Shown here piece by piece: positions 27,171 to 40,874 of a DNA stretch of 64,000 bases (the first letter of the stretch is position 1; the number at the start of each line of letters is the position of its first letter). The translations under genes were made by a program, and so were the position numbers. Under the pieces are notes generated by a model, which saw only the letters and a list, made by a program, of their open reading frames with translations, ran no database searches and was not told the origin of the DNA. The stretch lies in assembly GCF_019802125.1 (NCBI RefSeq), contig NZ_JAHVHT010000001.1, forward strand, positions 372,001 to 436,000, given 5' to 3'. The DNA comes from Tateyamaria omphalii. GTDB taxonomy: Bacteria > Pseudomonadota > Alphaproteobacteria > Rhodobacterales > Rhodobacteraceae.

Positions 27171-30100
27171 CTAGTAGTCCCGTTCGATGAAGATGCCGAT
27201 GCCCGTATTGCCATCTCCGCTGACCGAGCCACGGGCGGTGATATTCGGCGTCAGATCAATGTTCAGCGACACTTCGGGCCCGTCAGCACCGCCCACGGTC
27301 ACATCGGTATAGACGTTTTCGGACAGGTAGCGCCCGGCGCGCACGGCGGTATTGCCTTCATCGTCTGACGCGACATCCAGGTCATCCAGTCCGAAAGAGC
27401 CGCGCAGTTGTGATACGATCCCTTCGCCGCCTGCGCCGGCAAGGCTGGCCACCGCACTGGCCAGCTGCAACGCCTGGAAAGCCGAAAGCTGGCTGATGTC
27501 GCGGCCAAATATGATCTGGGCCAGCACCTGGTCCTCAGGCGCCTCGGGTGTGGCTTCGAACCGGACATCGGGGTCGTCCGCTGGCCCGTCCACGATGATG
27601 CGCGCCGTGCCGGTCGAGGTATCGGTTTCCACGACAAACAGCAGGATCGGCTCGAAGCGACCTTGCAGGGTGATGCGGCCTTCATCCAGGGTGAAGCGCT
27701 GCGCAAGTATGCTGAGCCGTCCACGGATCAGGTCGAACTGCCCGGTTGAGATGATGTCGGCGGTCGTTCCGGACAGGCGTAGCTGGCCGCCGAGTTCCGC
27801 GTCCAGACCACGGCCCCGGATAAAGATGCGATTGGGTGCGTTGATTGTGAGGTCGAGCGGGTATGCCGCCCCTGTGCCGCTACCTGTGCTTTCGTCCTGC
27901 ACCAGCCCGGCGCGGGCCTGGGTGCGCATAACGGGGCGGGTGGCGCCGATATGTGTGATGTCGGGGATCGCGCCAAAGCTGGCGATACCAGTCGATGGCA
28001 CCTGAACGTTTGTCTCGCCCAGGTTCAGTTGCCCGGAAATGGCTGCGCCGCCGGTCAGAGGGCCGCTCAGATTGACTTGGCCATCGACAGTCGTGGAATA
28101 AAGTGTGGGATCCCGCAGCAAGACCGCGTTCAGCCCGACCGCCAGCTGTGCAGGATAGCTGCCATTCAGCGTGATGGGCCCGGAGATCGCGACCGACCCG
28201 CCCTCAGTGATGGCCGCCTTGAAGTCCAGAGCCGCCTGTCCACCGGACAGGCGGACGGTGCCCGAAAGATCGGAAATGGACACCGGTAGGTTGGGCGTGG
28301 CAACCCGAGCGCCCTGGGTCGTGATCTGACCCGAGACGGAGCTGAGCGCCGGTTGTCCGTTTACGGCCAGGTCAAAGCGTGCGGTGCCAAGGATTGTGCG
28401 TGGCGTAATGAACGGATTGACGAGGCCCAGTTGAAGCTGGCCCTGCGTGTTGATGTTCAACGTGCCGTCGGGCCGGATTTGGCCTGCAGCCTTGGCTGTC
28501 GTGCCGGAGGGCCCTGCGATCTGCGTGTCTATGTCAAAGGCGTCTCCGACCTGTTGCAGCGTGCCGTTGACCGACGCGCCGCCGTTCAAGCCGGGAACGA
28601 GCGGTGCGACGTTCGGCATGCTCAGCGCATAACGCGCGGCGGCTACCCCGTCGGTGAGCGAGGCCGACACCCGGCCTGTACTGCTGTAAGGACCTGCTAC
28701 ATCCGTCACGACGTCCCATCCGTCAGGCGTTTGGCTCAACGTGCCGTCGAGGTTCAGTGGTCCGCGCACGCCCGGTGCAATGGCCGCCACGTTCGGGATG
28801 GAAAGGTCGAAATCACTGACAAGCACGTCCTCGAACGTGCCCGAGAGTGTGCCGGTGCTGTCGTAGGGGCCGCTGAGATCTGTATCAAACGCCCAACCAT
28901 CCGCGGTTTGGCGGATGTCCCCATTCAGTGCACCACCACCCGGCACGCCGGGGGCAAAAGCTGACAGGTTCGGCGCAGAGACGTCATAGCGGGCTGACAG
29001 CCGCCCGCCATCGAACAGGCCAGTCACCGCGGCTTCTGCCTCTGCAGGGCCGTCAATGTTTGTTTCGAATTGCCACGCGCCATTCCTTTGCGCGGCTGTC
29101 GCGGTCAGGCGCACAGGCTCGGTGATTTGAGGCACAAGCCGTTCAAGGTCCTCTACCACCGCGTCGAGGGAGATATCGCTCTGATCGTCGGAGATACGCG
29201 CGGTGCCGGTGGCCGACGTGTCAAGCGGTCCGGTCAGACCACCAGAAACATCCCAGATCCCGCCAGACTGTGTGGCGGTTCCATCAACGGTGATCGGTCC
29301 CTCGACCGCGTCGGTGATGAGGCCAACATCTGCAAGTGATGCGTTGAAGCGGGCGGTGGACGCCCCGGTGCTCAGATCGGCGGATGCGGTGAGGTTAAGC
29401 GCGCTGTTCTCCAGCGTCAGCCGGTCGAGGACAGTGCCGGTCGTGTCGCGCCGCGCCGCAACCACCAGATCGGTCCGCCCTTCCAACAGCGCGTCGGCTT
29501 GTTCGATGCCCAGTCCAAGATCGCGTGTTTGACCTGTGATCGTAACATCGAAAAAGCCACCCAAGGCGGCTGTCCCGGAAGCGGAAAGATCTCCTGCGCC
29601 GGACAGGTCCAGCCCGGCAAGCTCTGCAAAGGCTGACAGATCCCGGGTCGACAGAGACGTTTCAAACGACGTTTCCAACGCTTCATCAAAACCGTCCATT
29701 TCAACGGACCCACCGAGTGCCCATGCGGCTCCGGTCAGGGCAAGATCAGTCAGGCGCAGTGGTGCGTCATCTGCATAGGCGATGTTGAGCCCGCCACGCA
29801 CTTCCTGTCCTACTGCGCGAGCCAGTCCGGTGTCCGAAAGCGCAATTCCGTTCGCCGAGAGGTTCAGACGACCGTCCAAGGCTCCAATGCTCCCCACCGC
29901 GCCAGTGAGCGTGCCATCAAAGAAGAGCGCCATGTCGTCGACTGCATTTCCATCTTGATCCAGTCCTGACGCCGTGATCCGTGCCTGCAGGGCGTCGCTT
30001 TGTCCGGCATCGAACGCGATGTCCAGTGCGGCTTCTGCCACGCGCGCACCACCGGCACCGGGGAGTGCTACAGCCGTTCCGTCGGGATCGCGCAGTCTCC

Positions 30101-31103
30101 CCTGGATATCCAGAAGCGTGGGCCAGCCATCGCTGTTCAGACCGACTTGACCCGCCAGTTGGATCGCGCGCGCCTCAAGCGCAAACGTATCGAGGGCAAG
30201 TGCGCCGTTTGCATCCGTGCTGCCCTGCGCCTCAAGCGCCACGTCGGTGCCAAAGAAGTCACGGTATTCCGGCAGCACCAGCGCCGAGATGTCGCCGTCA
30301 AGTGCTGCATCAAAAGCCATCGGCCCGCCCGCTTCGCTTTGAAGTGCCAGCGTGCCGGCCAGACGCGGTGTGTCGTCGGTGCGCAGATCAAGCGTTGCAT
30401 CGAAATCGCTCAGCGCGCCTGAACCGTCGACAACCAGATCGACGCTGGGACGGTCAGGCAGGTTCAGAACACCGGAGACAAGTCCATTCTCTGCCTCGCT
30501 CAGTCCCAGATCCAGCGTCAGATCGCGGGTGTCATTGGCATAGGCCGCAGTGACATCGAAGCTGCCGCGCGGGCCGTCTGTGCGTGTGGCGTTGAGTGTT
30601 GCATTGCCTGCACCCCCTGCAAGCTCTGCCGCGCCGGAGACCGACAGAACCGCAGCCTCTCCCAATATGGGGGCGCCAAGGGAAACCGAGCCGAGCTCAA
30701 GCTGCGCGATTCGGACGGCAGCGGGCAGGTCGGGCAGTGAAAAGGGCGCTGCCTCGGGCGCGGGCAGGTCGCTGTCCTGGGCCACCGGCAGGCGTGGCAG
30801 GTCGATGCGCGCCGCGCGCAGTTCCTGAATGTCGATCGTGGCGCGGAACAGGGCGGAGCGGTTCCACTGCATCGCAACGTCTTCGAGCGTCAGCCAGATG
30901 CCCTCGCTGTCGGCGATGGTGATGCGTTCGATGGTGGCGCGGCTGCTGAGCGCCCCGGCAAAGCCGTCGATGCGAACGATGCGACCTTCACCGCCAAGGC
31001 TGCTTTCCAAGAGGCCGACGAGGAACCCGCGATCCTCGTCGTCCTGTGCCGTGCCAGCCATTGGCCACATCAGTAGGAGCAGTATGCACAAAAGCCGCCG
31101 CAT
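27171..31103 (-). CDS. tamB: TamB, translocation and assembly module inner-membrane protein
   Basis: A 1310-residue protein with an N-terminal signal/anchor (MRRLLCILLLLMWPMAGTA) and a very long repetitive beta-rich body, in which strands like ALSVSGAAELAGG recur. This matches the beta-taco groove of AsmA-like proteins. The conserved C-terminal TamB domain contains LTINAPNRIFIRGRGLDAEL, DLIRGRLSILAQRF and DVRFEATPEAPEDQVLAQIIFG. It spans the periplasm between the membranes and works with TamA in phospholipid transport and/or outer-membrane protein assembly. Its start overlaps the tamA stop by one base (TGATG). Confidence 0.94.
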   Translation of the reverse strand: MRRLLCILLLLMWPMAGTAQDDEDRGFLVGLLESSLGGEGRIVRIDGFAGALSSRATIERITIADSEGIWLTLEDVAMQWNRSALFRATIDIQELRAARIDLPRLPVAQDSDLPAPEAAPFSLPDLPAAVRIAQLELGSVSLGAPILGEAAVLSVSGAAELAGGAGNATLNATRTDGPRGSFDVTAAYANDTRDLTLDLGLSEAENGLVSGVLNLPDRPSVDLVVDGSGALSDFDATLDLRTDDTPRLAGTLALQSEAGGPMAFDAALDGDISALVLPEYRDFFGTDVALEAQGSTDANGALALDTFALEARAIQLAGQVGLNSDGWPTLLDIQGRLRDPDGTAVALPGAGGARVAEAALDIAFDAGQSDALQARITASGLDQDGNAVDDMALFFDGTLTGAVGSIGALDGRLNLSANGIALSDTGLARAVGQEVRGGLNIAYADDAPLRLTDLALTGAAWALGGSVEMDGFDEALETSFETSLSTRDLSAFAELAGLDLSGAGDLSASGTAALGGFFDVTITGQTRDLGLGIEQADALLEGRTDLVVAARRDTTGTVLDRLTLENSALNLTASADLSTGASTARFNASLADVGLITDAVEGPITVDGTATQSGGIWDVSGGLTGPLDTSATGTARISDDQSDISLDAVVEDLERLVPQITEPVRLTATAAQRNGAWQFETNIDGPAEAEAAVTGLFDGGRLSARYDVSAPNLSAFAPGVPGGGALNGDIRQTADGWAFDTDLSGPYDSTGTLSGTFEDVLVSDFDLSIPNVAAIAPGVRGPLNLDGTLSQTPDGWDVVTDVAGPYSSTGRVSASLTDGVAAARYALSMPNVAPLVPGLNGGASVNGTLQQVGDAFDIDTQIAGPSGTTAKAAGQIRPDGTLNINTQGQLQLGLVNPFITPRTILGTARFDLAVNGQPALSSVSGQITTQGARVATPNLPVSISDLSGTVRLSGGQAALDFKAAITEGGSVAISGPITLNGSYPAQLAVGLNAVLLRDPTLYSTTVDGQVNLSGPLTGGAAISGQLNLGETNVQVPSTGIASFGAIPDITHIGATRPVMRTQARAGLVQDESTGSGTGAAYPLDLTINAPNRIFIRGRGLDAELGGQLRLSGTTADIISTGQFDLIRGRLSILAQRFTLDEGRITLQGRFEPILLFVVETDTSTGTARIIVDGPADDPDVRFEATPEAPEDQVLAQIIFGRDISQLSAFQALQLASAVASLAGAGGEGIVSQLRGSFGLDDLDVASDDEGNTAVRAGRYLSENVYTDVTVGGADGPEVSLNIDLTPNITARGSVSGDGNTGIGIFIERDY

Positions 31104-32887
31104 CAGAATGCCTGCCCGATACCGATATAGATCTCGACCCCGGAACTGTCGCCGGGCCCGGAGCCGGGCAGGGCGACATCAAAGCGGATGGGGCCGATGC
31201 CCGTGTCGTAGCGCACGCCAGCGCCAAAGCCTGTGTGCCACTCGCCGTCACCGTCAAAGAAGCTTTCGGCGCCAATATAGCCTGCATCGTAGAAACCCAC
31301 GACCGAGAACCGGTCGCCTGTCTTGACCCGCATCTCGCCCGACAGCCCAAGGAAGGACCGGCCACCGATGGTCACGCCGGGGCTCAACTCGACGCCCAAG
31401 GATTGGTAATCCTGGCCGCGTACTGTGCCGCTACCACCCGAAAAGAACAGGAAGTCTGCAGGCGCTTCTTCGATCGATGGCCCGGCAACGGAGCCTACTA
31501 GCCCCCGCACGGCCAGCACCACGCGGTCCCCCAGCTTGCGGTAGGTGCGCAGGTCAAGCGATGTGACCACGCCGTCGCTGGTGCCGTCGATGTTGATGAA
31601 GGGACGCAGTGATGCCTCGGCGTAGTAGCCGGACGTCGCGTTCAGGGCGTTGTCGCGCCGGTCGAACTTGGCGTTGAACGGGAAGGTCAGGATCGTGTAG
31701 TCCCGCTCGCCCAGATCGTCGCGGGTGCGCGCCTTCTGGAGGCCGATACCGTAGCTGTATTCGCGATCTTCACTAGCGAAATAGACGGTGCTGAATTCGA
31801 GCCGCCCGGTCCGGGAAAACAGGTTCGGGTCATCTCGCTGTTCGATCTCGGCCAGCAGCACGGCCTCTAGGTCGGTGCGCCAGGTGGCGGGGCGGGACAG
31901 CTGCGCGCCCAGGCGAAAGTCGACACCGTCGGTATCGCCACCGACACCCGAGATTTCGCCATCAATCTGCAAACGCTCCGCACCGCCGAAGATGTTGCGA
32001 TGCAGCCAGAGCGCGCTGACGCTGACGCCATCGGTGGTGCCGTATTCCGCGCCAAAGCGGTAGCGGCGGGGCAGTTGATCGGCAATTTGGGCGGTTACGT
32101 CGAGCGTGCCATCGGGATTGGGCGTTTCGGCTTCGGTCAGGCTGGCGCTGGCAAAGGTGCCGGTCCGTCGAAACCGCTGTTCGACCTGGTCCAGAGTGTC
32201 GGGGTCAAAGACCTCGCCGCTGGGCCAGCCCGCGATCTCGCGCAGGCGCTTTTCGCGCACGTTGCTTTCCCCTTCGATGTTCAGACGGCCGAGGCGCAGG
32301 CGCGGGCCCGGATCCAATCGAATGTCGGCGTTCAACTGGCCCGCCGGGTGGTTGGCGATGATCTGCTGTTCGGACACGGCGGCCTTGGCATGGCCCTGTT
32401 GTCGCCACCCTTCAATGCCCGCCTCCGTGGCGGTGCGCAGTGCGGAGACATTTGCAGTCTCTCCGGGTGCAACCTGGAAAACGCGTTCCGTGCCCTCTGC
32501 CGTGGGGCTGACGGTCACGGTGCCGAAGGTAAAGACCTTGCCCGGATCAACTGTCACCACGACGGAGTCGACGGCGGGCGGCGCCGAGACAGGCGACAGG
32601 CCAGCCGCTTCGCGACCATCCACGGTGATCGAAATGGTGGGGCCGAAATAACCTTTGTCATAGAGCAGCCCAATCAGACGGGCGTAGTCCGCCTGTGCGG
32701 CGCTGATGACGTCGATGGCGCGCGGTGCGGTTTCTTCGTCCGGCAGGCTGGCGGTCAGCGATGCTGCCCGCAATTCGTCAGCCAAGTCTCCGGGCGCGCG
32801 GACGTCCACTGTCAGGGCGATTGCAGCCCCCGCTGCGCCGAATGTGGCGCCAATCACTGCCACAACCTGGCAGACAGTCCGATACAT
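31103..32887 (-). CDS. tamA: TamA, outer-membrane BamA-family barrel protein
   Basis: A 594-residue outer-membrane protein. An N-terminal signal peptide is followed by POTRA domains (about residues 30-270, including LRLGRLNIEGESNVREKRL). The 16-strand barrel region (about 280-594) contains the BamA-family surface motif FFSGGSGTVRGQDYQSLG (VRGF/VRGQ-type lid loop) and a C-terminal strand ending GIGQAF. It partners TamB encoded immediately downstream in the same operon. The length fits TamA, which has three POTRA domains, better than BamA. Confidence 0.93.
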   Translation of the reverse strand: MYRTVCQVVAVIGATFGAAGAAIALTVDVRAPGDLADELRAASLTASLPDEETAPRAIDVISAAQADYARLIGLLYDKGYFGPTISITVDGREAAGLSPVSAPPAVDSVVVTVDPGKVFTFGTVTVSPTAEGTERVFQVAPGETANVSALRTATEAGIEGWRQQGHAKAAVSEQQIIANHPAGQLNADIRLDPGPRLRLGRLNIEGESNVREKRLREIAGWPSGEVFDPDTLDQVEQRFRRTGTFASASLTEAETPNPDGTLDVTAQIADQLPRRYRFGAEYGTTDGVSVSALWLHRNIFGGAERLQIDGEISGVGGDTDGVDFRLGAQLSRPATWRTDLEAVLLAEIEQRDDPNLFSRTGRLEFSTVYFASEDREYSYGIGLQKARTRDDLGERDYTILTFPFNAKFDRRDNALNATSGYYAEASLRPFINIDGTSDGVVTSLDLRTYRKLGDRVVLAVRGLVGSVAGPSIEEAPADFLFFSGGSGTVRGQDYQSLGVELSPGVTIGGRSFLGLSGEMRVKTGDRFSVVGFYDAGYIGAESFFDGDGEWHTGFGAGVRYDTGIGPIRFDVALPGSGPGDSSGVEIYIGIGQAF

Positions 32888-32990: not shown

Positions 32991-35939
32991 TCAGGTTTTG
33001 ACGTAGCCCGCCACCACTTGCAGCAATCGGAAGGCCGTTGCCGCGTCGTTCTCGACCACGGCCATGAACTCCTCTTCCCCGATGCGCAGACAGGTCAGAT
33101 CGGATTTGGCGCGCATGTCGAGCGCGCGGGGCTCGCTGCGGATCAGGCCCAATTCCCCGACCAGTGCCCCGGCACCGACCGTGGCGATCAGGGTGTCTTC
33201 GGCACTGTCCTGCGGCAGCAGGAGATCCGCCTCGCCTTCGGTGATCATGTAAGCGCCGTCGGTCGGGTCGTCGTTCTTGTGAAAGACGTATTCGCCCGGT
33301 TGTGCATTGTACCACCGCGCGCCAAAGGCCAGCAGACGAAGCTGGCGGCGTTTGAGACCGGCAAACATCGGGGCCTGTCGCAGCGCCTCGACCTTGCGCG
33401 CCAGATCGGCGCTGGCGTCGCTGCCGATGTCGGCCCGCTCACCTCCGGCGCCCTGCAGACGTCCCTGCACCACCTCGACATGCGTGTCGAAGACCTGTTC
33501 GCCTTCAAAGGAAGTACCGAGGAAAACCAGCGTTGCGTCAGGCAGAAGCTCACGCAGCTTTTCGATCAGCGATCCGCGTATCTCGTCCCCGTAGCTGGCC
33601 ATCGGTTCATCGAGGATCAGGATGTCGGGGCGCTTGATGCTGGCGCGGCTGATCGACAGGGGTTCTGCAAAAAGTGCGGGCAGGTTGGCACCACCCAGCG
33701 CGATCGGCACGTCAAAGACCAGTTCGAGGACAAGATGGCTCATGCCCGCTTCGGTCAGCACGTCCACGACGATGCCGCGCAGGTCATCCGCACGCGCGCC
33801 TGCGCTGTCGGCTACCTTGCCGAACAGGGCGTTTTCCAGAACGGACAGGCCATGCACGTGTTTGTCAGCCTCGATGGGGACAAAGATATCCTCCATCTGC
33901 TCCCGCAGTGTCGCCCCATGCGCAACCCGCATGTCCAGCACCCGCTCACGCACCTCGTCGGGGAAGGCGGCGGCCACCTGTTCGGCGGTGACGTTGGCGG
34001 GCACGCTCAAAAGCAACGCCAGTTCCTTGTCCGAGATGTCGGACCCTTGCGGCTTGCGCTCCACCACTTCCAGCGCCGCGTTGTAGACTTCGGCCTGCAA
34101 TCCGATGCGCTGGAACAGCGGGTGATCGGTGCCGTTTGGACCAAAGGTCTGGCGCAGCATCTCAAGGATGTTGCGCGCGAGCATTTCGAGATTTGACGCA
34201 AGCGAAAGGTCGTGTAGCAGGCGGAGGAAATCCAGTTTGGCCTCGATGACCTCCGGCGTGATCTCGACCTTCGGCGTCGCATAGAGCAGGTTTTGCGCAA
34301 TCGGCAGCGCCGGATTGTAGCTGTCGGGATGAAAGCTGTGTACATAGCGGTCAAGCCCGGCGTCGGCCACAGCGGCAGCGACCTTGGGGCGCAATGCGAC
34401 AAGCGTTCGGGCCAGTTCGGCGTTTCGTTCCGCGTCAAAGGTCTGGTCCATCGTGCGCCGGGTCAGGGCGTCGGCGCTGCCACTGCCCGCGATCAGCGTG
34501 TACCACCAGGCCCGCAGCGCGTCCTTGTCGGGCACGCCTGCGATGCTGGGGTCAAGCCATTTGGCCTCCAGCATGTCGGCACTGTTGCCCGCGCGCAGGG
34601 CCTCCCGGCTGAAATCGCTTTCGGCAGCCGCTTCGGTCGGGGCAAGCCGCATCGGCATCATCACGTTCTGCCCGTAGCTGCCCTGAAACATGATGGGGCG
34701 CGAGGTGGCGTGACCGATGCGCTTGGCAATCGCGGTCTGGTGCAGGGTACGGATGTCGTGACCTGCAAGCGTGACGGTTCCGGTGGTTGGCAGCGTTTCG
34801 CGGGTGAGCACTTCTGCCAACGCGCGCCGGTCTTCATCATTGGGGGCGGTGATCCCGATGCTTGTCCCCGCGGGGACAGTCAGCGAAATGTCTTCCAGCA
34901 CCGCGTTCCCGTCGCCGTCGCGCACCGTGACCTGATCCAAAACGATGTCCCCGGTCAATCGCGGGGCCTCAGGTGCAGGGCCATAGAACAGATCGTCGTC
35001 GATCATGCCGGCAGGCGCGAACCGTTCGGTGATCGTCTCCCACCGCAGGGACATGTCCGCGACCTGGTTGTAATAGGCCAGCAGCTCTTTCCACGGGCTC
35101 GACAGGTCCTTGTACGCCGCCAGGGCCGCCACGAGCGCGCCGATGGTGACGTCGCCTCGGATCACCAGGTAGCCGCCAACAGAGAAGAAAAAGAATGGCG
35201 TCAGCTGAGTGATGAAGTTGTTGAGGAACTTCATGAAGAATTTCTTCTGGTAGATCTCGAACCGGATGGCAAAGAGCGTACCGAGCCGGTTGCCGATCAT
35301 CGCCATACGGTAGCGCCAACCACCATTGACGCGCAGGGTGCCCGCACCAGCAGCGCCTTCGCCGATCTCGGCAGCCAGCGCACGGACCTGGATCACCCGG
35401 CTTTTGTTCAGCAGGTTGATCTGGCGTTGAAGCTTGGGGATCAGCCAGGCTTGCAGCGGGATCAAGGCGATGGCGGCAAGACCAAACGCCACCGACTGGA
35501 AAAAGAGAAAGCCAAGGATCGTCAACATCTGCCCGGCTTGCAGGACCGGCTGGGCAATCGCATCGCCCATCAACCCGCCCATCGGCTCGCTCTCGGCGGT
35601 GACCATGCTGACCAACTCGCCCTGGCTCGTGCGCTCGAAATAGGGCTGCGGAAAGCGCAGGATGCGGGCAATCAGGGTGTAGCGGAAGCGGCGCAGCAGC
35701 CGCTCGGCGAGCACGCCCTTCATCGTATTGATCCGCATCTTGAGCAGGCCATGGCACAGCACCGCGAAAAGAAACCCGCCGCAAAGGATCATCAGATATG
35801 TGATCTGATCGAACTCGAACCCATAGGCCGACACGGTCGGCGAGCCGGAACCGATCGCATCGTTGATGATCCGCTTGGGCAGCTCGAGCGTCAGGTAGAG
35901 CAGCGGAAACAGCATCAGCGTCACCGCCAGCAGGATCAA
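32991..35939 (-). CDS. ABC-exporter-like protein with degenerate ATPase domain, long insert and C-terminal cNMP-binding domain
   Basis: About 982 residues. Residues 1-310 form a type-I ABC exporter transmembrane domain (RFPQPYFERTSQGELVSMV is the usual coupling region). An NBD starts near 326, but Walker A is replaced by GITAPNDEDRRA (no P-loop lysine), the Q-loop glutamine aligns with serine (GHATSRPIMF), and the H-switch is absent (FLGTSFEGE). Walker B (DILILDEPMASYG) near 771 is intact. About 340 residues separate Q-loop and signature positions. A cyclic-nucleotide-binding domain fills about 851-982 (MITEGEADLL, GALVGELGLI). The start is uncertain: the listed TTG at 35939 is preceded in frame by family-like residues (ERSLFRFIWIYSKRDQL), open to 36063 without ATG, GTG or TTG. 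An ATA at 35988-35990 may be used. Confidence 0.85.
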   Translation of the reverse strand: MILLAVTLMLFPLLYLTLELPKRIINDAIGSGSPTVSAYGFEFDQITYLMILCGGFLFAVLCHGLLKMRINTMKGVLAERLLRRFRYTLIARILRFPQPYFERTSQGELVSMVTAESEPMGGLMGDAIAQPVLQAGQMLTILGFLFFQSVAFGLAAIALIPLQAWLIPKLQRQINLLNKSRVIQVRALAAEIGEGAAGAGTLRVNGGWRYRMAMIGNRLGTLFAIRFEIYQKKFFMKFLNNFITQLTPFFFFSVGGYLVIRGDVTIGALVAALAAYKDLSSPWKELLAYYNQVADMSLRWETITERFAPAGMIDDDLFYGPAPEAPRLTGDIVLDQVTVRDGDGNAVLEDISLTVPAGTSIGITAPNDEDRRALAEVLTRETLPTTGTVTLAGHDIRTLHQTAIAKRIGHATSRPIMFQGSYGQNVMMPMRLAPTEAAAESDFSREALRAGNSADMLEAKWLDPSIAGVPDKDALRAWWYTLIAGSGSADALTRRTMDQTFDAERNAELARTLVALRPKVAAAVADAGLDRYVHSFHPDSYNPALPIAQNLLYATPKVEITPEVIEAKLDFLRLLHDLSLASNLEMLARNILEMLRQTFGPNGTDHPLFQRIGLQAEVYNAALEVVERKPQGSDISDKELALLLSVPANVTAEQVAAAFPDEVRERVLDMRVAHGATLREQMEDIFVPIEADKHVHGLSVLENALFGKVADSAGARADDLRGIVVDVLTEAGMSHLVLELVFDVPIALGGANLPALFAEPLSISRASIKRPDILILDEPMASYGDEIRGSLIEKLRELLPDATLVFLGTSFEGEQVFDTHVEVVQGRLQGAGGERADIGSDASADLARKVEALRQAPMFAGLKRRQLRLLAFGARWYNAQPGEYVFHKNDDPTDGAYMITEGEADLLLPQDSAEDTLIATVGAGALVGELGLIRSEPRALDMRAKSDLTCLRIGEEEFMAVVENDAATAFRLLQVVAGYVKT
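34863..34878. repeat. 16-base perfect palindrome, copy 2 of 3
   Basis: TGTCCCCGCGGGGACA lies inside the ABC-exporter-like gene, where on the minus strand it encodes VPAGT just before the degenerate P-loop. VPAG is normal at this place in ABC proteins, so this copy may be a codon-choice coincidence. Confidence 0.6.
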
Positions 35940-36152
35940 CTGATCGCGTTTCGAATAGATCCAGATAAATCGAAAGAGGGAGCGTTCTATGGTGCCGGTC
36001 CACGTACTGAAAAGGGCGGGCAGGACGCCCGACGGTAGCCTATCAACGGGCTGAACCTGAAATCAATGGTCCGTCAGGGCCCGTGACAGGACGATTGCGA
36101 CGCAGCCCGGCCCGTCCTAGGGTGAGGGTGGAAGGTTCGCGAGAGGTACATT

Positions 36153-36536
36153 TTGACCGACCCAGTCACATTTGCCCTGGTCCTGCTGTTTTTGCTGCAG
36201 GTCAAGCATCTGTTCGCCGACTTCTATCTGCAGACACCTCGGATGCTCGCCAACCGCGGGGTCTACATGCATGTCGGGCGGCTCCAACACGCTGGCCTTC
36301 ATGCGGTTGGATCGCTGGTCGCCATGGTTCTGGTGGGGGTGCCTGTCTGGCTCGCGCTGGTGGTGGCCGTGGTGGAATGGGTCGCGCATTTTCATATCGA
36401 CTGGTGCAAGGGGTGGTGGTCCGAACACACCGGTCACGACCCCAGCCAGGGCGGGTTCTGGCGCGCATTCGGTCTGGATCAGGCGCTGCACCAATGGACC
36501 TATCTCGTGATGGCCTGGGTGGTCCTGCCGGGATGA
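36153..36536 (+). CDS. DUF3307-domain small membrane protein
   Basis: A 127-residue protein with three to four hydrophobic helices. The conserved start LLFLLQVKHLFADFYLQT and the motif EWVAHFHIDWCKGW match the DUF3307 family, which has His/Asp residues at membrane faces and unknown function. The start is TTG at 36153, with GAGAGG at 36141-36146 at good spacing; no ATG is available in that region. The gene is divergent from the ABC-exporter-like gene and followed by formaldehyde dehydrogenase. No functional link to either is apparent. Confidence 0.83.
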   Translation: MTDPVTFALVLLFLLQVKHLFADFYLQTPRMLANRGVYMHVGRLQHAGLHAVGSLVAMVLVGVPVWLALVVAVVEWVAHFHIDWCKGWWSEHTGHDPSQGGFWRAFGLDQALHQWTYLVMAWVVLPG

Positions 36537-36714
36537 TGCTGCGGCCAACGTCTGCATGGCACGCCTGCGTTTCCCGATGGAGCATATCGTAAACAAGGCA
36601 TCGCATTGCTCACGCTGGGTAGCGCCTCTGACCGCCTTGCATCGCATTCTCTGCATTGACAGACGGCCTATCCGCTGGCTCACATGACGAAAATATCACT
36701 TGGGAGGATACACC

Positions 36715-37830
<1,116 letters not shown>

Positions 37831-38175
37831 CTAGGATGCCGCGCCACACGTTCGGGGCGCGATACTTCAGTTTGAATATCCACGGCATGGTGGCTGCGCT
37901 TTGCAGCCACCATGCGCTTTTTTGGTTGGAACACTAAGTATTTACGGGTGCGCTTGAGGACATTTTCTCGGGTCATGCCCGGCTGAATATGAAGCGCGAT
38001 GTGGCAACGCACTTGCCCTTGATGTCGACATGTTCAGAAAAGTACGCGTTGCAATAAGCTGTCTTTTAGCAAGTGACGTCGCGATCTGTGACCGCGTTGG
38101 CGCGATCTGCAGGTTTCCCAACCGCCTCGTGTTGCCTAGCTTTATGGTCAAACGGGGATAGTTCAGGAGCGCGCG
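37831..38175. other. 345-base intergenic region (adhC terminator, then promoter region of iorA)
   Basis: It contains the adhC terminator at 37885-37923. The rest has no convincing gene. It should include the promoter for the molybdoenzyme pair, with GGAG at about 38166 serving as ribosome binding site. No clear operator was seen. Confidence 0.5.
37885..37923 (+). terminator. Strong Rho-independent terminator of adhC
   Basis: The thirteen-base perfect arms GCATGGTGGCTGC and GCAGCCACCATGC surround the loop GCTTT and are followed by GC and six T residues. Confidence 0.95.
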
Positions 38176-38634
38176 ATGAAACTCACGGTGAACGGTACAG
38201 AACACGAGGTGGATGTCGAAGATGACATGCCGCTTCTGTGGGTGCTGCGGGATGAACTGAACATCAAGGGCGTCAAATATGGCTGCGGTGTCGCGCAATG
38301 TGGCGCCTGCACAGTGCATATCGACGGCGAAGCTGTGCGGTCGTGCCAAACCGCTGCGGCAGATGTCTGGGGTGAGGTCACGACGATCGAGGGGCTGGGC
38401 ACACCGGACGCGCTGCACGCGGTGCAAGCGGCATGGGTCGAACACCAGGTCGCGCAATGCGGCTATTGCCAGTCCGGTCAGATGATGCAGGCCGCCGCCC
38501 TGCTGGCCACGAACCCGGCGCCGACGGATGCAGATATCGACGATGCGATGAACGGTAACCTGTGCCGCTGCGGCACCTATCCCCGCATCCGCGCCGCGGT
38601 CAAAACCGCCGCCACCAAGTTGCAGGAGGTGTGA
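38176..38634 (+). CDS. iorA: Isoquinoline 1-oxidoreductase-type small subunit ([2Fe-2S])
   Basis: A 152-residue protein of the xanthine-oxidase-family small-subunit type. The N-terminal plant-type [2Fe-2S] ligands are in [12 protein letters not shown] with a further cysteine in RSCQTA. The C-terminal [2Fe-2S] ligands are in [11 protein letters not shown] and [12 protein letters not shown]. It passes electrons from the molybdenum site of the large subunit, encoded two bases downstream. Together they hydroxylate an aromatic N-heterocycle or oxidise an aldehyde, usually with a cytochrome as acceptor. The symbol reflects family resemblance; isoquinoline as substrate is not shown. Confidence 0.9.
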
Positions 38635-38636
38635 GG

Positions 38637-40874
38637 ATGAGCCGCATCGGAAAAATCGCCCGCCGTACCTTCCTCGTCGGCTCTGCCGCTGTCGTGGGTG
38701 GCGTCGCCTTTGGCTACTACGCCTACAAGCGCCCCGTCTCGAACCCGCTGCTCGCCGATCTGGGCGAGGGCGAGGCAGCCCTGACGCCCTACGTGAAGAT
38801 CGACAGCACCGGCATCACCCTGATCACCCCGCGCGCCGACAGCGGGCAGGGGGCCTATCATGTGCAGGCCGCGCTGATTGCCGAGGAACTGGATGTCGAG
38901 CTGGATCAGGTGCGTGTCGATCCCGGCATGCCCGATCCCGCCTACTACAACACCGCACTGAGTGCGGAGGCTGCGCCGTTCCGGTCGACAGATGATGGCC
39001 TCGTCGCCGATACGACACGCGGGATCATGGATGCCATGATGAAGTTCATGGGCCTTCAGATCACTGGCGGCTCCACCACGGTCCCCGACAGCTTCGAAAA
39101 GCTGCGCCTCGCAGGTGCCGTCGCGCGCGAGACACTCAAGGCCGCCGCCGCACAGGAGACCGGCGCAAACATCGCCGATCTGAAAACCGAGAAAGGCACC
39201 GTGATCCTGCCCGGCGGCGGTACGCTCGCCTATACCGAGCTTGCGGCCACGGCGGCGACGCTCGACCCGGTCAATGATGTGACCCTGCGCGATCCGTCCA
39301 CCTGGCGTCTTGTCGGGAAAGAGATGGAGCGGATCGACATCCTCGCCAAATCCACCGGCACGCAGCGCTACGGTATCGACTTCGAGGTCGAGGGCATGGT
39401 CCACGCCTCCGTCCGCACCAGCCCGCGTCGCGGCGCGATGAACGGCTTTGACGCTACAACGGCTCGCGACATGCGTGGGGTGATCGACGTGGTCGAACTG
39501 TCCGACGGGGTCGCGGTTGTTGCTGACAACACATGGCGCGCCATGCAAGCCGTCAATGCCATCGACATCGACTGGGCTCCGGCCCTCTACCCACCAGAGC
39601 AGGCGGACCATTGGCAAGCGCTCTCCGACAGCTTCAACGCCGACCAGCAGGACAGCCGTGTCCGCGATGATGGCGACGTGGACGCAGCACTCGACGGCGC
39701 CGAAGTGATCGAGGCCGAATACCGTGCCCCATACCTCGCCCACGCCCCGCTGGAACCGATTTCGGCGGTCGTGCAGGTGACGGATGACCGCGCCGATGTC
39801 TGGACCGGCACCCAGATCCCGCGCTTCGTACAAAGCAATGTCGCCAAGCTGACGGGGCTCGATACCGATCAGGTCTTTGTCCACGTGCTGGTGATGGGCG
39901 GCAGCTTCGGCCACCGGCTCGAAGACCGTGTCGTGCGCGAGGCCACCCAGATCGCGATGCAGATCAAAGGAACGCCGGTCAAACTGACCTACAGCCGGGA
40001 AGAGGACACGCTGCAGAACGACACCCGCCAGATCGCCATGGCGCGCGGACGCGGGGCGGTGAAGGATGGCAAGGTCGAGGCCTATGACCTCGGCATCGCC
40101 ATGCCGTCAGTCGTGGCGAGCCAGATGGGACGGCAAGGGTTGCCCACACCAGGGCCCGACTTGCAGATCGTCGCAGGCGCATGGGAACAGCCCATGCAAA
40201 TCCCGAACTACCGCGTCACCGGCTACCGCGCGCCTGGGCTTGCGCCGGTCTCGAGTTGGCGGTCGGTGGGTGCGTCGACCAACGGTTTCTTCCACGACGT
40301 CTTTCTGGATGAGCTGATCCACACTGCGGGCGCCGATCCCATGGAAGAACGCCTGCGCCTTTGTTGGCACGATCCATCCCGCAAGACACTGGAGGCGGTG
40401 GCCGAGATGTCGGGCTGGGGCAGCGACCTTGGACCAAACAAAGGGCGTGGCGTCGCCTTCTGCCTGTCTTTTGGTGTGCCAACCGCTGAGGTCGTCGAGG
40501 TCAGCAACATCGACGGCGCCATCAAGATCGACAAGGTCTGGGTCGCCGCCGAAGTGGGCCGGGTCATCGACCCGATCAACTTCGAAAACATCGTGCAGGG
40601 CGGGATCAACTGGGCGCTCGGCCACGCCATGAACTCGGAAATCACCTACTCCGACGGGATGGCGGAACAGCGCAATTACTACGATTTTGAAGGGATGCGG
40701 ATGGCACAATCGCCCGAGATCTTCGTCCGCGGTCTGGAAAACGGCGACACCGTGCGCGGCATGGGCGAGCCGATGGTCCCGCCCGCCGCAGCCGCGCTGT
40801 CAAACGCGATCTTCGCCGCGACCGGCCAGCGGATCCGCGAAATGCCGATGGCTAAGCATATCGATTTCGTCTGA
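38637..40874 (+). CDS. iorB: Isoquinoline 1-oxidoreductase-type large subunit (molybdopterin, Tat-exported)
   Basis: A 745-residue molybdopterin-cytosine-dinucleotide enzyme subunit. The N-terminus ARRTFLVGSAAVVGGVAFG is a twin-arginine signal, so the folded heterodimer is probably exported or membrane-anchored in the periplasm. The cofactor-binding body contains PLEPISAVVQV, GGSFGHRLEDRVVREA and, near the C-terminus, VRGMGEPMVPPAAAALSNAI with the active-site glutamate (GxGE). The ATG at 38637 lies just after the iorA stop, with AGGAGG at 38623-38629. No FAD subunit is present, as expected for the IorAB type. An XdhC-like maturation factor is not adjacent. Confidence 0.9.
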   Translation: MSRIGKIARRTFLVGSAAVVGGVAFGYYAYKRPVSNPLLADLGEGEAALTPYVKIDSTGITLITPRADSGQGAYHVQAALIAEELDVELDQVRVDPGMPDPAYYNTALSAEAAPFRSTDDGLVADTTRGIMDAMMKFMGLQITGGSTTVPDSFEKLRLAGAVARETLKAAAAQETGANIADLKTEKGTVILPGGGTLAYTELAATAATLDPVNDVTLRDPSTWRLVGKEMERIDILAKSTGTQRYGIDFEVEGMVHASVRTSPRRGAMNGFDATTARDMRGVIDVVELSDGVAVVADNTWRAMQAVNAIDIDWAPALYPPEQADHWQALSDSFNADQQDSRVRDDGDVDAALDGAEVIEAEYRAPYLAHAPLEPISAVVQVTDDRADVWTGTQIPRFVQSNVAKLTGLDTDQVFVHVLVMGGSFGHRLEDRVVREATQIAMQIKGTPVKLTYSREEDTLQNDTRQIAMARGRGAVKDGKVEAYDLGIAMPSVVASQMGRQGLPTPGPDLQIVAGAWEQPMQIPNYRVTGYRAPGLAPVSSWRSVGASTNGFFHDVFLDELIHTAGADPMEERLRLCWHDPSRKTLEAVAEMSGWGSDLGPNKGRGVAFCLSFGVPTAEVVEVSNIDGAIKIDKVWVAAEVGRVIDPINFENIVQGGINWALGHAMNSEITYSDGMAEQRNYYDFEGMRMAQSPEIFVRGLENGDTVRGMGEPMVPPAAAALSNAIFAATGQRIREMPMAKHIDFV

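Follow-up and report, generated by a model that had tools for sequence, protein, structure and literature searches.

ATP-binding cassette (ABC) exporters such as MsbA, TmrAB, PCAT1 and the ABCB proteins join an exporter-type transmembrane domain (TMD) to the core of a nucleotide-binding domain (NBD). In TAP, CFTR, SUR and the heterodimeric exporters, one or more nucleotide sites are lost while the fold stays, and at least one competent site is kept. Cyclic-nucleotide-binding (CNB) domains with a Glu and an Arg in the phosphate-binding cassette (PBC) are found in CAP/Crp, in protein kinase A (PKA) regulatory (R) subunits and in CNG/HCN-type channels. Exporter and cNMP-binding domain occur together in the NHLM bacteriocin exporters, which are taken as active peptide exporters. 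Here we describe a gene of the marine bacterium Tateyamaria omphalii that encodes an exporter-like pseudo-ABC protein fused to a CNB domain. It lies on the minus strand of a stretch of 64,000 nucleotides (contig NZ_JAHVHT010000001.1, positions 372,001 to 436,000), called the window from here on, and coordinates are those of the window. The finding is real, conserved and unusual. The safest statement that the sequences allow is that the exporter TMD is preserved, the motor is not, and the CNB domain is a fixed partner.

The frame at 32994-36062 (minus strand) is open for 1023 codons, with a stop after it. An earlier sequence-only reading of the window had let the protein fill this frame from stop to stop; most likely it starts instead at an ATA codon (35988-35990), which gives a gene of 999 codons plus stop at 32991..35990. 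The exporter-type membrane domain and cNMP-binding tail of that reading are borne out by Pfam, which assigns ABC_membrane, ABC_tran (in two pieces) and cNMP_binding, the last at 56 bits and above its cut-off of 27.5. One chain holds the exporter-type TMD (residues 1-330, 35001..35990, minus strand), then the ABC NBD core, and at the C terminus the CNB domain (residues 862-998, 32997..33407, minus strand). The AlphaFold2 model of the chain is mostly confident, with a mean predicted local distance difference test (pLDDT) score of 81.7, a predicted TM-score (pTM) of 0.67 and weak stretches at residues 161-174, 288-293 and 848-857.

By sequence and fold, the nearest described proteins are the MsbA/TmrAB/PCAT1/ABCB exporters, with which the TMD fold and NBD core are common. 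The fold search was topped by P-glycoprotein, TmrAB and PCAT1 with E-values of 1e-13 to 1e-15, at TM-scores of just 0.22-0.37 over the query. Among the best 25 of 88 NCBIfam families, the best named subfamilies are exporters such as MsbA, with scores far under the curated cut-offs (103.6 bits against 602 for MsbA), and those of the MsbA, NHLM and HlyB exporter families were not reached. The NHLM family TIGR03797 resembles the protein in its combination of exporter and CNB domain, with a sub-threshold score of 70.5 bits against a cut-off of 709.4. Unlike the MsbA-like exporters, the window protein is without the P-loop Lys, Q-loop Gln, LSGGQ and H-loop, both paralogues described below being degenerate, and it adds about 280 residues with an internal duplication as well as the C-terminal CNB domain. 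Among the nearest solved chains to the latter are R subunits of PKA and a cyclic-nucleotide-binding protein from a bacterium. Unlike in CAP, PKA or CNG proteins, it is joined here to an exporter-type TMD and NBD, and not to a DNA-binding, kinase-inhibitor or channel module.

A profile built on the inserted segment and the signature region has matches at an E-value of 1e-15 or better in 131 of 385 alphaproteobacterial genomes. Open frames are mostly about 900 codons among those listed. No published description of the family was found in the open-licence literature, judged mostly by titles. Roseobacters carry two fused paralogues, A (the window gene) and B, usually together. The genome of the window has a single paralogue B, with 50% identity to A. 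Both A and B are present in all 20 Tateyamaria genomes examined, this one included, and in a genome of the sister genus (G024). In the bacterial family of the window presence is patchy, with a match in 21 of 120 genomes. As counted by identity, A-like copies (at least 55% identity) occur in 18, B-like copies (about 50%) in 16 and both in 14, and one genome (G484) is unassigned. A frameshift, which the sequence-only reading had named as a possible refutation, or an assembly artefact is ruled out by the conservation of the insertion in the 131 genomes and of A and B in the 20 Tateyamaria genomes. That reading did not include the repeat inside the protein, paralogue B, members of the family beyond roseobacters or the non-AUG start. 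A family member on pSymB of S. meliloti 1021 (L186:8001-11205) matches in two pieces with no long frame across them, and may be broken or contain a sequence error.

The loss of the motor was counted in an alignment of 49 A and 26 B rows (75 chains); all features below lie on the minus strand. In the degenerate Walker A (residues 380-392, ITAPNDEDRRALA, 34815..34853), Arg 388 stands where Lys is expected, and this position is Arg in 49/49 A and 26/26 B. None of the 75 chains has a Walker A of the form GxxGxGK[ST]. A canonical P-loop hidden elsewhere, the other refutation named earlier, is excluded as well, with GxxxxGK[ST] found nowhere in any of these chains. At the Q-loop (residues 427-436, 34683..34712) Ser 430 replaces Gln; no A or B row has Gln at the aligned position, and six (1 A and 5 B) have one elsewhere within 427-434. 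Thr 826 replaces the H-loop His (33513..33515), which no row retains. The signature region (residues 763-783, IALGGANLPALFAE..., 33642..33704) is degenerate too, and LSGGQ is missing from every A and B chain. The earlier list of losses (Lys, Gln, His) was therefore correct and incomplete.

Walker B (residues 790-797, ILILDEPM, 33600..33623, minus strand) has both its Asp and the catalytic Glu in the window protein, and the sequence-only reading had rightly noted ILILDEP. Across the clade Asp is kept in 35/49 A and 25/26 B, and Glu is exceptional, in 3/49 A (the window protein included) and 0/26 B. With the losses conserved in orthologues and in the paralogue, the proposal of a degenerate, probably non-cycling NBD is strengthened. 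In TAP, CFTR, SUR and the heterodimeric exporters a competent site is kept, whereas 0/75 A and B chains keep the defining motifs. The TMD is the most conserved part of the protein. In A (47 rows) conservation is 0.77 for the TMD, 0.53-0.58 for the NBD parts, 0.47 for the insert and 0.69 for the CNB domain; in B (22 rows) the values are 0.81, 0.69, 0.57 and 0.63 respectively. Codon position 3 is the most variable, and positions 1 and 2 are less diverse, in every domain.

The constant partner in the family is the CNB domain. Its PBC lies around GELGLIRSEPRA (33120..33170, minus strand), and every A row (49/49) keeps Glu 946 and Arg 955, the two residues found in the CNB proteins named above. For the wider family we used 40 further loci, hand-picked and so non-random, from the matches of the insert profile, 39 of them outside the bacterial family of the window; counts for the wider family refer to these. 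A search with a PBC-shaped motif caught 22 rows, of which 20 have the pattern GE...R[TS]A, in most cases in the form of GEIAILCDVPRTA, the motif itself demanding part of this pattern. In 33 of the 40 loci the next gene downstream, on the same strand, encodes the CNB domain; in 5 the domain is fused, and in 2 it was not found. In two loci (L162 and L171) the stop-to-stop frames of the ABC and CNB genes overlap widely. To judge from these arrangements, the CNB domain is a long-standing partner, as downstream gene or as fusion, in 38/40 loci. In a midpoint-rooted tree of 60 sequences, the fused forms, among them A and B, fall into a single clade of 21 (support 0.76), so one fusion event is sufficient. 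Several independent fusions were considered and rejected on this ground.

From the Q-loop position (430) to the signature (770) there are 340 residues, the number given in the sequence-only reading, and the excess over the ordinary exporter spacing is about 280. The inserted segment (residues 448-715, 33846..34649, minus strand) is mainly helical and confidently predicted. In the full-chain model it is ordered, and modelled alone with AlphaFold2 it gives an ordered helical body at a pLDDT of 88.0. A Foldseek search of the PDB with this model returned nothing significant, with a best E-value of 1.1. Within the segment we found an internal repeat, with copy 1 at residues 520-609 (34164..34433) and copy 2 at residues 674-762 (33705..33971), both on the minus strand, the second extending into the signature region. 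Profile comparison aligns the copies over 89 columns (E 4.6e-11, score 66.0). Among 40 random control segment pairs, the top three (60.1, 27.8 and 22.1) overlap both copies, and the other 37 scored 18.8 or less.

In a sequence search of the PDB, the best 60 of 270 stretches begin at profile position 266 or later, that is, from copy 2 on, and copy 2 continues into the region that aligns with solved exporters between their Q-loop and signature. By these profile matches the insert contains a tandem duplication of the Q-loop/helical region, and it therefore arose, at least partly, by tandem duplication of that NBD stretch. A triplication was also considered, as three ENLLFG-like motifs can be seen by eye, and was rejected: only the two later copies are supported. 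The putative first copy at the original Q-loop gives E-values of 0.0022-0.014, no better than an unrelated comparison of the first-copy segment with the N-terminal part of the NBD (E 0.00099 over 8 columns).

The best of several readings, one that we favour about as much as we doubt it, is that of an exporter-fold membrane protein with a pseudo-ATPase, controlled by its CNB domain. In roseobacters A and B would pair with each other, or each with itself, and either way the dimer would lack a competent ATP site. The NBDs would then act as a regulated coupling scaffold, where ligand binding to the CNB domain shifts the arrangement of NBD and insert and thereby the conformation of the TMD. The TMD itself would be a gate, a sensor or an ATP-independent passage for lipid or glycolipid, and not a pump. 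The presence of glycosyltransferase neighbours, described below, makes an envelope glycan or glycolipid the first guess for a cargo.

Several observations weigh against this reading. The PBC of B keeps Arg, with Asp in place of Glu 946 in 26/26 rows, and B may bind no cyclic nucleotide. The pairing of the paralogues is not strict: four genomes have A without B, two have a B-like copy without A, and the copy in one of these two (G027), B-like by identity, falls outside B in the tree. In the model of the TMD, pLDDT drops below 50 at residues 161-174 and 288-293. A further point comes from the wider family, where the P-loop Lys is kept in 22 of 40 loci (Arg in 14), the signature Gln in 34, the Walker B Glu in 20 and the H-loop His in 10. 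ATP could therefore still be bound there, and even slowly hydrolysed, and loss of the ATPase may not be what the function requires.

This retention also speaks for a protein that is still an ATP-driven exporter, in which Arg substitutes for Lys, nucleotide is bound in an unusual way and the CNB domain tunes the cycle. Its substrate could be a glycolipid or polysaccharide precursor, and two further observations fit. The window protein has both Walker B residues, and 22-26 of the 40 wider-family loci have homologues of three glycosyltransferase-type neighbours within the stretches fetched, with annotated glycosyltransferases beside the ABC/CNB pair on plasmids of Rhizobium sp. WSM4643 and R. johnstonii 3841. 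We consider this account unlikely, if one still to be reckoned with. All aligned A and B chains of roseobacters are without P-loop Lys, LSGGQ and H-loop His, and the wider family is itself damaged at the Mg site. Working P-loops have Ser or Thr after the Lys; of the 40 loci, 19 have Glu and 15 have Asp after the Lys or Arg, and at Walker B 22 have Asn and 8 have Ser in place of the Asp. With these residues replaced in most loci, the damage is older than the roseobacters. Judged by these motifs, degeneration is graded across the wider family, with A and B further along. In G190, a genome with three family members, one fused copy (L183) has Cys where the P-loop Lys would be.

The same glycosyltransferase neighbours would suit a passive or structural role, with the protein as a scaffold in the membrane for recruiting glycosyltransferases or factors of envelope assembly and the CNB domain as a module that binds protein and not nucleotide. 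The altered PBC of B agrees with this, as does the position of B just upstream of a CPBP/Rce1-like protease, then accD and folC, in the loci inspected (in the genome of the window on C2, L036:4710-9685). The PBC of A, with Glu and Arg invariant, and the canonical form in most of the wider-family CNB rows caught by the motif argue against this. Furthermore, the TMD is conserved above all other domains, which suggests a working membrane passage or gate. On balance we regard a mere scaffold as improbable.

The sequence-only reading had placed the gene next to tamA and tamB, and the adjacency is correct: tamA (POTRA and Omp85 domains, 31103..32887) and tamB (27171..31103), both on the minus strand, lie downstream of the window gene. 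Of the 80 named loci, 5 A loci show this arrangement, all in Tateyamaria, and the remaining 75 do not (flanks of up to 6 kb, with some contigs ending early). A partnership with TamAB is therefore rejected as a general one, and the general functional link implied earlier is not supported. A DUF3307 gene (36153..36536, plus strand) is the divergent neighbour of A. It is annotated beside A in Ruegeria sp. TM1040, and similar genes were seen by eye in the inspected Ruegeria, Phaeobacter and Sulfitobacter loci. Further upstream, 36700-40874 holds what we take to be alcohol-dehydrogenase-like and xanthine-dehydrogenase-like genes.

The family also includes short TMD proteins without an NBD in the same chain, which speaks for the pseudo-ATPase reading. 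In two of the 17 TMD-only loci compared (L131:4436-6993 and L203:4773-7043), the TMD-only gene is followed by a gene that is presumably truncated-globin-like and then by a class III adenylate/guanylate cyclase. A histidine kinase sequence lies on the opposite strand. The L203 copy of the TMD-only relative has an internal stop. This arrangement is intriguing, and the link that it offers to cyclic nucleotides is thin. Further short exporter-TMD proteins without an NBD were seen in Rhodobacteraceae genomes (L132, L133, L134 and L204-L215), and the L131 cyclase gave no match among their neighbours.

A also appears to use a very rare start codon, AUA, that many genera have retained. In 54 named A loci, the codon at the position of the inferred ATA (35988..35990, minus strand) is ATA in 35, ATC in 15, ATT in 1 and ATG in 3, so that 51 of 54 are non-AUG. 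A second genome set, partly of the same assemblies, gives 20 of 21 A loci non-AUG (15 ATA, 5 ATC). Upstream, conservation is clearest in a Shine-Dalgarno-like GGA that spans -11 to -9 relative to the ATA (35999..36001, minus strand) and follows the motif GG[A/G], with G at -11 in 51/55, G at -10 in 47/55 and A or G at -9 in 52/55. Apart from this motif and a milder bias just before the codon, upstream diversity is near saturation (about 0.75 pairwise). From the start codon on, codon positions 1 and 2 are conserved and position 3 varies. The upstream diversity profile gives no sign of a conserved 5' RNA element, no Rfam search having been run.

That translation begins elsewhere, at an upstream or internal ATG, GTG or TTG, with AUA or AUC as an ordinary Ile codon, we consider very improbable. 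An in-frame codon of this kind before the upstream stop is present in 24 of the 51 non-AUG loci (L097, with an upstream TTG, is counted among them), and the A gene of the Ruegeria sp. TM1040 megaplasmid (L188:5001-8021) is publicly annotated from a TTG 17 codons downstream of the AUA. The other 27 loci have no such codon, and the coding pattern begins with the codon in question, after the unconserved upstream sequence. An internal start at codon 18 would lose the conserved ERSLFAFIWKYSKRDQ. At the position of the inferred start, all 26 named non-A loci have ATG, and in the 40 wider-family loci the residue is Met in 31 and Val or Leu in 9. Among the 53 rows used, 50 first codons are non-AUG and 34 of these are ATA, a codon that accounts for 3.8% of internal Ile codons. 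G is avoided at the first codon, since fourfold third positions have 43% G and the third position of the first codon has it in 3/53. These rows are related sequences, and p-values on them are not literal. With ATA as the root state, parsimony requires about 10 changes from A to C, 3 from A to G and 1 from A to T; any other root state is equally costly or costlier by a single step.

AUH-class starts behind a Shine-Dalgarno sequence are known for infC, pcnB and the S. aureus genes cvfC1 and ccpN, and A resembles them in this. It differs in encoding a membrane protein, in being conserved across many genera of roseobacters, and in its codons, most often AUA with repeated changes to AUC. Such starts seem to be in use in the genome of the window, as its infC (L190, C1 at about 1576.3 kb) has an apparent ATC start behind an AAAGGA Shine-Dalgarno sequence, with an in-frame TTG 8 codons upstream (one genome checked). 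In S. aureus, AUA/AUU starts are reported for infC, cvfC1 and ccpN, and in poor medium reporters of such sites express at about 10% of the AUG level, with up to 30% for ccpN in rich medium (PMC13009471). By analogy with these lowered levels, translation of A is probably held low by its weak start codon, perhaps in a way tied to initiation factor IF3. Outside infC and pcnB, A looks like a clear and long-conserved case of an AUA/AUC start. The single comparable annotated A-type record misses the AUA. The start is directly testable, and it is the most testable new result.

A bolder form of the pseudo-ATPase reading, tentative and one that we would sooner doubt than accept, is that the family is an obligate pseudo-ATPase across the class. 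It would be a cyclic-nucleotide-gated, ATP-independent gate with its CNB subunit, and roseobacters would meter one paralogue through a selected AUA/AUC start sensed by IF3. Lastly, it is scarcely credible that A and B are decaying genes heading for loss, as the missing catalytic motifs, the patchy presence and the broken frame of one metagenome copy of A (L070) might suggest, given that 53 of the 54 named A loci have open frames of 997-1028 codons and that codon positions 1 and 2 are less diverse than position 3 in every domain.

If the pseudo-ATPase reading is right, an ABC exporter fold would have been converted, across the depth of a bacterial class, from an ATP motor into a membrane device controlled by a second messenger. 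It would offer a natural test of what an exporter TMD can do without ATP hydrolysis. It would also mean that cyclic nucleotides act as signals at the cell envelope in rhizobia and marine roseobacters.

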